From Ignavibacteria bacterium (GTDB taxonomy: Bacteria; Bacteroidota; Ignavibacteria; Ignavibacteriales; Melioribacteraceae): DNA of 5,903 nt. Below, in pieces: positions 2,734-5,469 of this stretch (the first letter of the stretch is position 1; the number at the start of each line of letters is the position of its first letter). The position numbers and the translations under genes are program-made. Below the pieces are notes generated by a model, which did no database searches, was not told the origin of the DNA, and was given only the letters and a program-made list of their open reading frames with translations. Where the stretch lies: positions 1 through 5,903 of the forward strand of contig QILJ01000374.1 of NCBI GenBank assembly GCA_003233295.1. Direction: 5' to 3'.

Positions 2734-2916
2734 TTAATTGTTCTTATTTCTCGCTATATAAATCACACTAAAAGCGGATAAGTATAGCGGGATCATATAT
2801 TCAATTCTGTTAGTTTATTACATCTGGGTAAAAATTCATTTAGTTACTATTAACGGCTGAGTTCTAGTTATTTCAGTAAAATAACAAATTTAAATTGTCT
2901 GTAAGACTCCTTCGTT

Positions 2917-2933
2917 GAACTACTCCGTAGTTC
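2917..2933. repeat. Left outer hairpin, 7-bp stem and 3-base loop
   Basis: GAACTAC and GTAGTTC pair perfectly around TCC (GGA on the minus strand). It has the same 17-base format as the two central hairpins and occupies the position matching the 3085-3102 hairpin in the right arm, although the stem sequence is different. Confidence 0.8.
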
Positions 2934-2952
2934 CTTATAGTTTTGTCATCAT

Positions 2953-3003
2953 TAACCACGTATTTCATACGTGGTTATTATAACTTTGACTGCTTTGCAG
3001 TCA
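2953..3003 (-). repeat. Left inner arm (two hairpins plus linker)
   Basis: Read on the minus strand from 3003, a 17-base hairpin (TGACTGC, loop AAA, GCAGTCA), the linker AAGTTATAA, then a 25-base hairpin with an 11-bp stem (TAACCACGTAT pairing with ATACGTGGTTA) and loop GAA. All 18 pairs are perfect. It aligns gaplessly with 3009-3059. Confidence 0.88.
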
Positions 3004-3008
3004 TAACA

Positions 3009-3059
3009 GAACTGTGAAATAGTTCAAATTATAATAACTATGGGTGAACCCCATAGTTA
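3009..3059 (+). repeat. Right inner arm (two hairpins plus linker)
   Basis: On the plus strand, a 17-base hairpin (GAACTGT, loop GAA, ATAGTTC, with one G-T pair), the linker AAATTATAA, then a 25-base hairpin (TAACTATGGG pairing with CCCATAGTTA) around TGAAC. Compared with the left arm, 9 pairs are identical, 7 are changed on both sides, one becomes G-T and one next to the loop is unpaired. Confidence 0.88.
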
Positions 3060-3080
3060 AAGACAAACAAGCAACAATCT

Positions 3081-3107
3081 ACAATCCCGAAAACTTTCGG
3101 GAGTTGT
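3081..3107. repeat. Right outer hairpin with a single bulge
   Basis: TCCCGAAA (3085-3092) pairs with TTTCGGGA (3095-3102), most realistically with the innermost pairs open as an AACT loop. The foot ACAA/TTGT extends the stem past a bulged G at 3103. Confidence 0.7.
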
Positions 3108-3116
3108 CCAAAGGAC
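3106..3116. repeat. Small terminal hairpin of the right arm
   Basis: GTCC and GGAC pair around AAA. Its last bases run into the conserved outer word. The matching place in the left arm (CAAC, GAA, GGAG) no longer pairs, so this hairpin is intact on one side only. Confidence 0.5.
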
Positions 3117-3161
3117 TCTTAAAGAGAAATATAATTGCTGAATAGAACTTAGCTCTATTAA

Positions 3162-3620
3162 CTAAATATCCCCATCGTAACGTATCCATTCCTGCGTTCT
3201 ATGAAAAAAGAACACATAGCCGCGAACTTGCAATTTCCCGTTTTCAACCCAGAGTTTGCAGTCATATACTTTTCCTTTTTTAGGATCGAGAATTTCACCG
3301 TCTTCCCAATCATTATCGTCTTTGTTATACACCATATCTGTAATGATTGTCATACCCAATATTTTTTGATCTTTTCTCGGATCATCATCATCGCATTTGT
3401 CACAAACAGGGTCCGGGTCCTCATCGGGTAACCTAAATAATTTTACAACATCTCCGTAGAGTTTTCCATCCTTAATATAAATTTTAACAACAGATTTAAC
3501 ACGCCCGGTTTCGTCATCAATAGTTTTCCACAATCCGGTTATATCTTCGTGTTGTGCAAAAAGTAAGTTTGAGAGTAAAAGGAATATTAACATGGCTGGG
3601 AATATGAATAAACGTTTCAT
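3162..3620 (-). CDS. Secreted DUF2147 family protein
   Basis: A 152-residue exported protein. Residues 1-23 form a classic signal peptide (MKRLFIFPAML, then a hydrophobic stretch ending NLLFAQ), probably cleaved after the Ala of FAQ. The mature part matches the DUF2147 family along its length: ITGLWKTIDDETG (27-39), SVVKIYIKDGKLYGDVV (43-59), the acidic segment with a CDKC pair (Cys73, Cys76), KILGMTII (86-93), DWEDGEILDPKKGKVYDCKL (104-123), KLQVRGY (129-135) and RTQEW (141-145). The family has a lipocalin-like beta-barrel appearance, and its biochemical role is not established. The ATG at 3618-3620 is preferred over a GTG one codon upstream because AGGAG lies 5 bases before the ATG but only 2 before the GTG. 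It is divergent from the small plus-strand gene, with a 150-bp gap between them, and is followed 36 bases downstream by the hairpin array. Confidence 0.93.
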   Translation of the reverse strand: MKRLFIFPAMLIFLLLSNLLFAQHEDITGLWKTIDDETGRVKSVVKIYIKDGKLYGDVVKLFRLPDEDPDPVCDKCDDDDPRKDQKILGMTIITDMVYNKDDNDWEDGEILDPKKGKVYDCKLWVENGKLQVRGYVFFFHRTQEWIRYDGDI

Positions 3621-3625
3621 CACTT

Positions 3626-4186: not shown

Positions 4187-4843
4187 TTAAATTATTTCTT
4201 TTAGTGCATCATAATTCGCTTTAATTGTTTTATCTAAGTCTTCCGTAGTATGTGCGGTGGAAATAAACATTGCTTCAAACTGTGACGGTGCAAGATAAAT
4301 TCCTTTCTCAAGCATTTTGTGAAAATATTTCCCGTACAGTTCTGTATCCGATTTCATTGCAGAGTTAAAATCGGCAACATTTTCTTCTGTAAAAAACAAA
4401 CAGCTCATCGAACCAACTCTATTCATCACAAAAGATCTGTTGAGTTTTTTCAAGTTCTCTTTTAAACCTTCTTCGAGATATCCGCTTTTTTCTTCGAGTA
4501 TATCGTAAAGATTTTCATTTTCCTTAATATGTGTGAGGGCAGCAAGCCCGGCACTCATAGCAAGAGGATTGCCGCTCAATGTTCCTGCTTGATAAACCGG
4601 ACCAACCGGAGCAAGAGTATCCATAATATCTTTTCTTCCGCCAAACGCACCGACGGGGAGTCCGCCCCCGATTATTTTCCCAAAGGTTGTTAAGTCCGGT
4701 TGAACGCCGTAGACTTCCTGTGCTCCACCTTTGGCAACTCTAAAGCCTGACATTACTTCATCGAAGATCAGAACAATGTCTTCCTCATTACAAAGAGTTC
4801 TTAATTCTAATAGAAACTCTTTGGCAGCGGGAACCACTCCCAT
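4187..4843 (-). CDS. hemL: Glutamate-1-semialdehyde 2,1-aminomutase, C-terminal part (frameshifted gene)
   Basis: This is the 3' half of hemL, a PLP enzyme (class III aminotransferase fold) converting glutamate-1-semialdehyde to 5-aminolevulinate. In this frame the reading is open from about 4915. The upstream codons give [18 protein letters not shown] before MGVVP, so the Met at 4843 is an internal residue and not a real start. Key residues are the PLP-contacting Asp in IFDEVMSGFR and the Schiff-base lysine in TFGKIIGGGLPVGAFGG, which is residue 265 of the rejoined protein, matching E. coli HemL Lys265. PVYQAGTLSGNPLAMSAG and the C-terminal FEAMFISTAH follow the family closely to the end. 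Nothing in this half is degraded. It ends two bases before a strong hairpin. With the other half it makes about 427 residues, the usual length. Confidence 0.9.
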   Translation of the reverse strand: MGVVPAAKEFLLELRTLCNEEDIVLIFDEVMSGFRVAKGGAQEVYGVQPDLTTFGKIIGGGLPVGAFGGRKDIMDTLAPVGPVYQAGTLSGNPLAMSAGLAALTHIKENENLYDILEEKSGYLEEGLKENLKKLNRSFVMNRVGSMSCLFFTEENVADFNSAMKSDTELYGKYFHKMLEKGIYLAPSQFEAMFISTAHTTEDLDKTIKANYDALKEII

Positions 4844-4855
4844 ATTGCCGGCAAT
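4844..4855. repeat. GC-rich palindrome ATTGCCGGCAAT
   Basis: A perfect 12-base palindrome in hemL (codons for IAGN) with the same TGCCGGCA core as the two other copies. Confidence 0.4.
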
Positions 4856-4866
4856 CGGTTCAATGA

Positions 4867-5469
4867 TTATCGCAGCAATTTCGTTCCTGTTTTCTTGAAG
4901 AAGAGATTTTCGATGTCATTATAATCGGCAACAAGAGTATCTGCCGCGTTGGCTGCAGTAACACCCGGACTTGTAGGCACTCCGAAGGTAAGAGCACCCG
5001 AACCGGCTTTGATCAGGAAGTAATCAGCATGCCCGTGATAGCAGCCTTCGAATTTGATAAATTTGTTCCGATTAGTAAATCCGCGGGCAACACGAACAGC
5101 GCTCATCGTTGCTTCTGTTCCGCTATTTACCATTCTGATTTTTTCAACTGATGGAACAAGCTCAGTTATAATTTTTGCCATTTTAATTTCAAGTTCAGTC
5201 GGCGCTCCAAAACTTGTTCCCTTTTCAAGATTAGCTGTAAGGGCATTTAAAATAAACTCAGGGTTATGCCCGAAAAGATGAGGTCCCCAACTCCCGATAT
5301 ATTCTATATATTCATTTCCATCCACATCATAAATTCGAGAACCTTTCCCGCGCTCAATAAATAACGGGGTACCGCCAACAGATTTAAAAGCGCGTACAGG
5401 GGAATTCACACCTCCGGGAATATATTTTTTAGCTTCTTCAAAAAACTTTTCACTTTTAGAATAATTCAT
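4867..5469 (-). CDS. hemL: Glutamate-1-semialdehyde 2,1-aminomutase, N-terminal part (frameshifted gene)
   Basis: This is the 5' half of hemL. Residues 1-187 follow the family: [13 protein letters not shown] (17-29), [18 protein letters not shown] (46-63), [17 protein letters not shown] (84-94), the PLP phosphate-binding [16 protein letters not shown] (115-130), [11 protein letters not shown] (139-149) and GVPTSPGV (163-170). After YNDIE (187) the frame drifts into 13 unrelated residues and stops at 4867-4869. The start ATG is supported by AAAAGGA 7 bases upstream, overlapping the hemB stop codon, so hemB and hemL are translationally coupled in one operon. If the frameshift is real, this half lacks the catalytic lysine and would be inactive, blocking 5-aminolevulinate synthesis by the C5 route. 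If it is a base-calling error, the gene is intact. Confidence 0.92.
4897..4915 (-). other. hemL: Frameshift site inside hemL
   Basis: The upstream frame is convincing through YNDIE. The downstream frame is open only from 4915 (a stop lies at 4916-4918) and convincing from the Gln codon at 4895-4897. One missing base in this interval joins them. If the four-base run at 4907-4910 were five long, the text would read [19 protein letters not shown], a natural HemL sequence giving 427 residues. Confidence 0.85.

Follow-up and report, generated by a model that had tools for sequence, protein, structure and literature searches.

The window analysed here, a stretch of 5,903 nucleotides from an Ignavibacteria bacterium (contig QILJ01000374.1), harbors in an intergenic position an array of hairpins arranged as two inverted arms. 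This locus raises the questions of what kind of element the array is and how it came to lie at this site. As set out below, it seems to us rather probable that a REP/BIME-like hairpin pair belonging to a Y1 transposase system was captured as cargo by a MITE of the IS1595 type, and that this MITE made the insertion found in the window.

Structure of the hairpin array

The array is flanked by two minus-strand genes at positions 1795-2733 and 3162-3623, the latter coding for a DUF2147 protein. Elsewhere in the window, the minus strand of positions 4187-5469 holds two open reading frames (4187-4843 and 4867-5469) which may be separated by a frameshift or a sequencing error; we take the product of this region to be a hemL-like aminotransferase. 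The two arms of the array face each other with hairpin 1 innermost. Each arm consists, in this order, of hairpin 1 (3-nt loop), a linker with the conserved motif AA...AATAA, hairpin 2 (TGAAA-like loop) and a remoter hairpin 3 which often resembles hairpin 1; the conserved stems of hairpins 1 and 2 have 7 pairs each. Arm A reads on the minus strand and comprises hairpin 1 at 2987-3003, the linker at 2978-2986, hairpin 2 at 2953-2977 with the core AACCACGTA-TGAAA-TACGTGGTT, and hairpin 3 at 2917-2933 (GAACTAC-GGA-GTAGTTC in minus reading). Arm B reads on the plus strand, with hairpin 1 at 3009-3025, the linker at 3026-3034, hairpin 2 at 3035-3059 (stem CTATGGG...CCCATAG), and hairpin 3 at 3085-3102, TCCCGAAAACTTTCGGGA. 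Hairpins 1 and 2 were delimited by alignment of the arms, the linkers by arm and unit alignments and hairpin 3 by folding and comparison of units.

An ungapped alignment of 51 bases can be made between the inner parts of the arms, 2953-3003 (minus) and 3009-3059 (plus); they are identical at 33 positions, which reproduces the match from which the sequence-only reading had started. Counting by hand over the 18 stem pairs gave, as in that reading, seven that differ on both sides and still pair, one G-T pair and one pair lost next to the loop. The AAC/GTT feet of the long hairpin, which had been described as fixed, do pair in the window copy (A-T/A-T) but are unpaired in most relatives: in one foot column pair, 33 of 42 representatives are lettered on both sides, 20 of them with A-A and 9 with A-U. 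Folding of positions 2880-3140 yielded -78.6 kcal/mol for the plus strand, compared to -42.8 (sd 3.8) for shuffled sequences, and the array region of the minus strand yielded -91 kcal/mol compared to -50.6; on either strand none of 200 shuffles reached the value of the array.

A dispersed family of paired units

A search with the protein of the neighbouring DUF2147 gene returned relatives whose labels were Melioribacteraceae, Ignavibacteriae and further names of the Bacteroidetes type. A covariance model built from the two window arms alone (R1) was run on the window together with 40 of the 80 loci from this protein search and found nothing convincing outside the window, the best other match having 18.6 bits and an E value of 0.3. 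Plain DNA comparison of positions 2880-3140 with five genomes (G001-G005) gave short matches only, of which three (L081, L082, L087) were set aside as a generic CCCGAAAACTTTCGGG hairpin. With R1 applied to 294 genomes of the class to which G002 (Melioribacteraceae) belongs, and up to 20 candidates scored per genome, eight genomes matched at E up to 0.01, and two class genomes contained at least 19 and at least 18 copies. With the refined model (R2), units were detected in 22 of 391 genomes of the class (E up to 0.001) and in 16 of 395 genomes taken from the phylum (E up to 1e-5). At the family level, 9 of 57 genomes matched, with at least 94, at least 42, 36, 29, 19, 5, 4, 1 and 1 copies, the highest counts being lower bounds as up to 104 candidates were scored per genome; the remaining 48 genomes were devoid of copies and serve as a built-in control. 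Thus the covariance-model search that had been proposed for the two 51-base arms uncovers a family whose many copies are scattered through related genomes.

The paired arrangement is not peculiar to the window either. Neighbouring units at most 330 bp apart stand in the -+ arrangement in 40 of 73 cases, and 33 of the 40 distinct -+ pairs are alike in the two arm types they combine, which carry C and T, respectively, as the second letter of the hairpin 2 stem. This difference is therefore a property of the family and not of the window copy alone; nevertheless, the 40 pairs are not independent cases because copies within one genome are related. In G234 and G241 units are also repeated head to tail, one about every 69-70 bp (L269, 1306-1564; L271, 1525-1850).

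Covariation of the stems

For the analysis of the stems, a structure-blind MAFFT alignment of 41 units was made which contained 39 representatives at no more than 80% identity together with both window arms. From the 42 representatives the partial units L161 and L169 had been left out, and L240 was replaced by the two window arms, of which arm A is closer to L237 than the 80% limit applied to the others. In this alignment 96.7% of the 574 cells pair, and double changes are seen in 13 of the 14 stem pairs, while the loops and linkers are fixed. The double-change cells amount to 188, compared to 56.1 (sd 7.9) in shuffles, which leave kinship in, and to 14-26 in slid structures. Covariation was also found on 62 distinct rows of the model-fitted alignment. 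The stem changes with kept pairing that were first noticed between the two window arms are thus also seen among the units of the family. The strand preference is weak, with 12 G-T against 5 A-C wobble pairs (p = 0.14); leaving aside the outermost pair the numbers are 11 and 2 (p = 0.02).

The paired changes could in principle stem from the mutational process itself, that is from quasi-palindrome correction through template switching as described in PMC8794818, rather than from selection on shape, and the mostly perfect pairing of the stems would fit such a process. We regard this as unlikely, since the loops and linkers stay fixed while the stems vary, as would be the case for a recognised substrate, although repair of the stems would spare the loops as well. 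The units moreover track a single clade of Y1 transposases, as is also anticipated for a recognised substrate.

Association with one clade of Y1 transposases

The sequence-only reading had advised to look for a Y1/RAYT transposase, and Y1_Tnp genes are indeed present in 12 of 13 and in 14 of 15 genomes searched. Among the 97 distinct Y1 matches listed, 72 loci were scanned with R2, and ten of them contained units; the E value was at most 4e-5 at nine of these and 0.00098 at L227, the unit of which is weak. In a tree of the Y1 proteins, from which five of 54 reading frames were left out as shorter than 110 residues, the ten unit-bearing proteins form one clade with a support of 100/100: units are found at 10 of 10 loci inside and at none of 39 outside the clade. 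One of the frames left out, L264, is a clade-like Y1 fragment with no detected unit. The same ten proteins are the best matches of the L164 protein with E up to 7e-60 (L164 included), the next match being at 1e-40; two of the ten, L219 and L261, are nearly identical. At six of the ten loci (L144, L155, L156, L164, L171, L178) the model R1, made from the window arms alone, had already detected the units with E values up to 0.001; the link to the Y1 genes is therefore not a product of model refinement. The layout [- +] Y1 [- +] is realized in L164, L171 and L259.

The clade proteins have a length of about 150 aa, and the HxH (HUH) and Y---Q motifs are invariant in nine aligned members; the L164 protein, coded at 1956-2399 of this G268 locus, matches PF01797 with 74.9 bits. 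The IS200 model NF033573 was passed at its cut-off by seven of the eight members scanned, and all eight remained below the cut-off of 80 bits of the RAYT model NF047646, reaching at most 32.2 bits. The extended motif Y---Q--HH is found in nine of ten members, L227 having EYH in place of EHH, and is also common among Y1 proteins without units. Judged by the family models and this motif, the clade proteins appear as IS200-like enzymes resembling subclass 1.2.

Other Y1 genes also tend to have hairpin-rich surroundings, with 4.05 hairpins per 900 bp of non-ORF sequence compared to 1.63 in 23 other loci of the class, where 9,927 bp contained 18 hairpins, and three or more hairpins are found at 18 of 44 other Y1 loci. 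Around the Y1 genes of L135, L138, L141, L142, L212 and L213 stand arrays of short hairpins which are of another kind and belong to the respective gene; that of L141 has two-hairpin arms with TAAA/TTTA loops repeated on either side.

Given the association with one clade, we suggest that the units are probably the single-stranded DNA substrate of one Y1 (HUH, IS200-like) clade in the related genomes. The Y1 protein would read the shape of the hairpins, their loops and the AA...AATA(A/G)C linker and not the letters of the stems, and for this reason the stems could drift as long as pairing is kept. The hairpin dimers would then have spread through the genome.

A different possibility is that the array acts as RNA, either as a cis structure in the leader of 1795-2733 or in the tail of 3162-3623, or as a bidirectional terminator. 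Its location between two minus-strand genes, the strong folds predicted on both strands and two terminator-like sites, compared to 0.3 expected, could be understood in this way. We consider such a role improbable, as the units are dispersed at many other places, also beside Y1 genes, and as no such array is seen in the roughly 330 bp covered downstream of the DUF2147 gene of locus L002. Identity with a known RNA family was rejected, since the Rfam covariance models gave no match to the window at E up to 1.

The window copy lies within an element with terminal repeats

Are the arms then the whole of the inserted element? The limits of 2898-3125 given by the sequence-only reading proved too small. 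The full copy extends from 2855 to 3154 and is a 300-bp element which has the hairpins as its core, is bounded by terminal inverted repeats and stands between target duplications of 8 bp that match perfectly. The left terminal repeat, GGCTGAGTTCTA...CAGTA, covers 2855-2878 on the plus strand and is an end common to other copies in the genome G399 and to an IS1595-type element; the right one, AGCTAAGTTCTATTCAGCAA in minus reading, covers 3135-3154 and was delimited by the end scan and by its match to the end of the IS1595-type element. The duplicated letters CTATTAAC stand at 2847-2854 and again at 3155-3162, and the right duplication ends on the last nucleotide of the DUF2147 stop codon.

G399 is 95.8% identical to the window over 3,803 bp and contains the same insertion. 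Comparison of its copies yielded the ends GGCTGAGTTCTA...CAGCA with 8-bp duplications, those of three further copies being AGAAAAAT, GTAAATAC and AATTTTTT. The duplications match at eight of eight positions in the window, L237, L239 and L244, and at seven of eight in L242, the terminal repeats being present in all five. In L285, as read from the sequence, the hairpin core is absent, and both ends and the duplication CTATTTCT are kept. In G216 the hairpin element of L360 has ends of the window type and a perfect duplication of eight bases, GTAAAAAT; at 257-2098 of L360 a hairpin MITE is interrupted by a long reading frame which looks to us like the transposase of another IS. The hairpin pairs of G407 are bounded by ends of another kind (GGTACA...); in the three pairs that were readable, the duplications match at 8, 8 and 7 of 8 bases.

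An automatic scan for ends and duplications in 51 core regions gave 12 hits, namely the window, L237, L239, L242, L244, L247, L250, L251 and four weak ones. The latter (one in L164, one in L165 and two in L171) were discounted, as flank pairs score even after shuffling, in 12 of 215 cases. No convincing hit was obtained for the core regions of G268, G334, G308 and G265. At L357, L358, L359 and L361 of G216, which the scan missed, the left end stands beside hairpin units, and no right end was found within the stretches examined. Several hairpin pairs of G268 (L159 to L170) are, by eye, flanked farther out by similar sequence of tens of bases; these flanks are in direct orientation and are not terminal inverted repeats.

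The end motif was matched in 12 of 57 family genomes, with 69 occurrences in G002, compared to six matches in all for a reversed control pattern. One element of G002 (L353, 570-1672) of 1,103 bp has ends of the window type and codes for a transposase of the IS1595 type (PF12762, 47.3 bits), the frame of which terminates within the terminal repeat; the 8-bp stretches on its two sides are not duplicates of each other and differ at 4 positions. An IS1595 transposase was looked for in G399, G216, G407 and G374 and none was found. Six Y1 matches were obtained in G399, and the five loci examined neither contained units nor belonged to the clade: the tree places L236 and L257 elsewhere, L258 is a weaker match whose frame was not long enough to enter the tree, and L209 and L221 have no matching Y1 frame. 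The absence from G399 of a clade Y1 gene and of an IS1595 transposase speaks against the reading preferred below, but is weak evidence as G399 has more than 440 contigs. Further elements with GGCTRAGTTCTA-type ends and 8-bp duplications contain other cargo (L288, L297, L298, L362, L364, L367), either terminator-like AAAAGCCCAACTTTT pairs or GTCAT... palindromes, the latter presumably a REP-like type of repeat.

IS1595 elements make target duplications of 8 bp; for Y1 transposases, to our knowledge, such duplications have not been described. We conclude that 2855-3154 is a non-autonomous transposable element, a MITE, with IS1595-type ends and a core of inverted three-hairpin arms. Since the window copy lies within an element having terminal inverted repeats and an 8-bp duplication, its insertion was most likely carried out by a DDE transposase. 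That a Y1 transposase inserted it as a plain REP/BIME, with terminal repeats that are coincidental or were added later, is very improbable, as the window and three like copies in G399 have perfect 8-bp duplications and elements with the same ends and other cargo show such duplications as well, even though such ends are absent from most other -+ pairs tested. The earlier idea of a REP/BIME-like unit moved by a Y1 enzyme is supported for the family, whose units occur in many genomes, stand in inverted pairs, covary in their stems and go together with one Y1 clade, but it had missed the element which encloses the pair. According to the reading we prefer, the hairpin dimer would have been captured in the window species between IS1595-type terminal repeats and then moved in trans by a DDE transposase, and the MITE carrying it would thereby have come to lie next to the DUF2147 stop codon.

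Comparison with known systems

The family resembles the REP/BIME/REPIN repeats and their RAYT proteins in its dispersed palindromic units, its inverted pairs and the copies on either side of a Y1 gene, that is in a BIME/REPtron-like architecture. Compensatory changes are also on record for the hairpin-forming spacer of REPINs (PMC3116915). Unlike REP/RAYT systems, however, the window family has three-hairpin arms, two arm types per pair and variable stems, and by the NCBIfam cut-offs the clade protein is IS200-like and not a RAYT. A classical GTAG REP was rejected, as the 41-unit alignment contains no GT(A/G)G foot; instead AA follows hairpin 1 and AATA(A/G)C precedes hairpin 2, and the flanks before hairpin 1 are variable.

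The clade proteins, about 150 aa long, share with TnpA-Y1 proteins of subclass 1.2 the Y---Q--HH motif, which is the signature of this subclass according to PMC6006769. The same paper describes the subclass as residing mostly in Cyanobacteria and Bacteroidetes, as low in copy number and as generally without typical terminal structures, in contrast to the clade found here with its abundant, cognate-looking hairpin arrays. The TIRYT/TIRtrons, as presented in PMC3733652, share inverted repeats around Y1 genes, some of them self-complementary, which elsewhere occur as dimers or clusters. According to PMC6006769, 20 of 26 published TIRYTs belong to subclass 2.1; their motif GGGGWSAS was not seen in the 41-unit alignment.

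With IS1595 elements and MITEs the window element has in common the terminal repeats, the 8-bp duplication and the PF12762 transposase, which is encoded by an element having these ends. Its interior differs in being a Y1-type hairpin array with no remnant of a transposase. A REP-containing MITE, QMITE2 of Coxiella, is described in PMC10969869; this one carries a GTAG REP, whereas the MITE of the window carries a paired three-hairpin array.

Implications

Taken more broadly, we see about an even chance that TnpA-Y1 proteins of subclass 1.2 run a shape-reading, REPtron-like system in which the ends are paired, non-equivalent and built of several hairpins, the stems are free as long as they pair, and each Y1 clade has its own hairpin family, with the arrays also able to spread along a second, unrelated route as cargo of DDE (IS1595) MITEs. 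The hairpin arrays are in this respect a candidate substrate for a subclass of Y1 enzymes described as generally lacking terminal structures, and the relatives of the hairpin pair beside one Y1 branch suggest what this little-known branch acts on. The natural covariation set, with free stems and with fixed loops and linker, points to the positions worth testing. The window itself would offer an example of the repeat of one transposition system riding inside the element of another.
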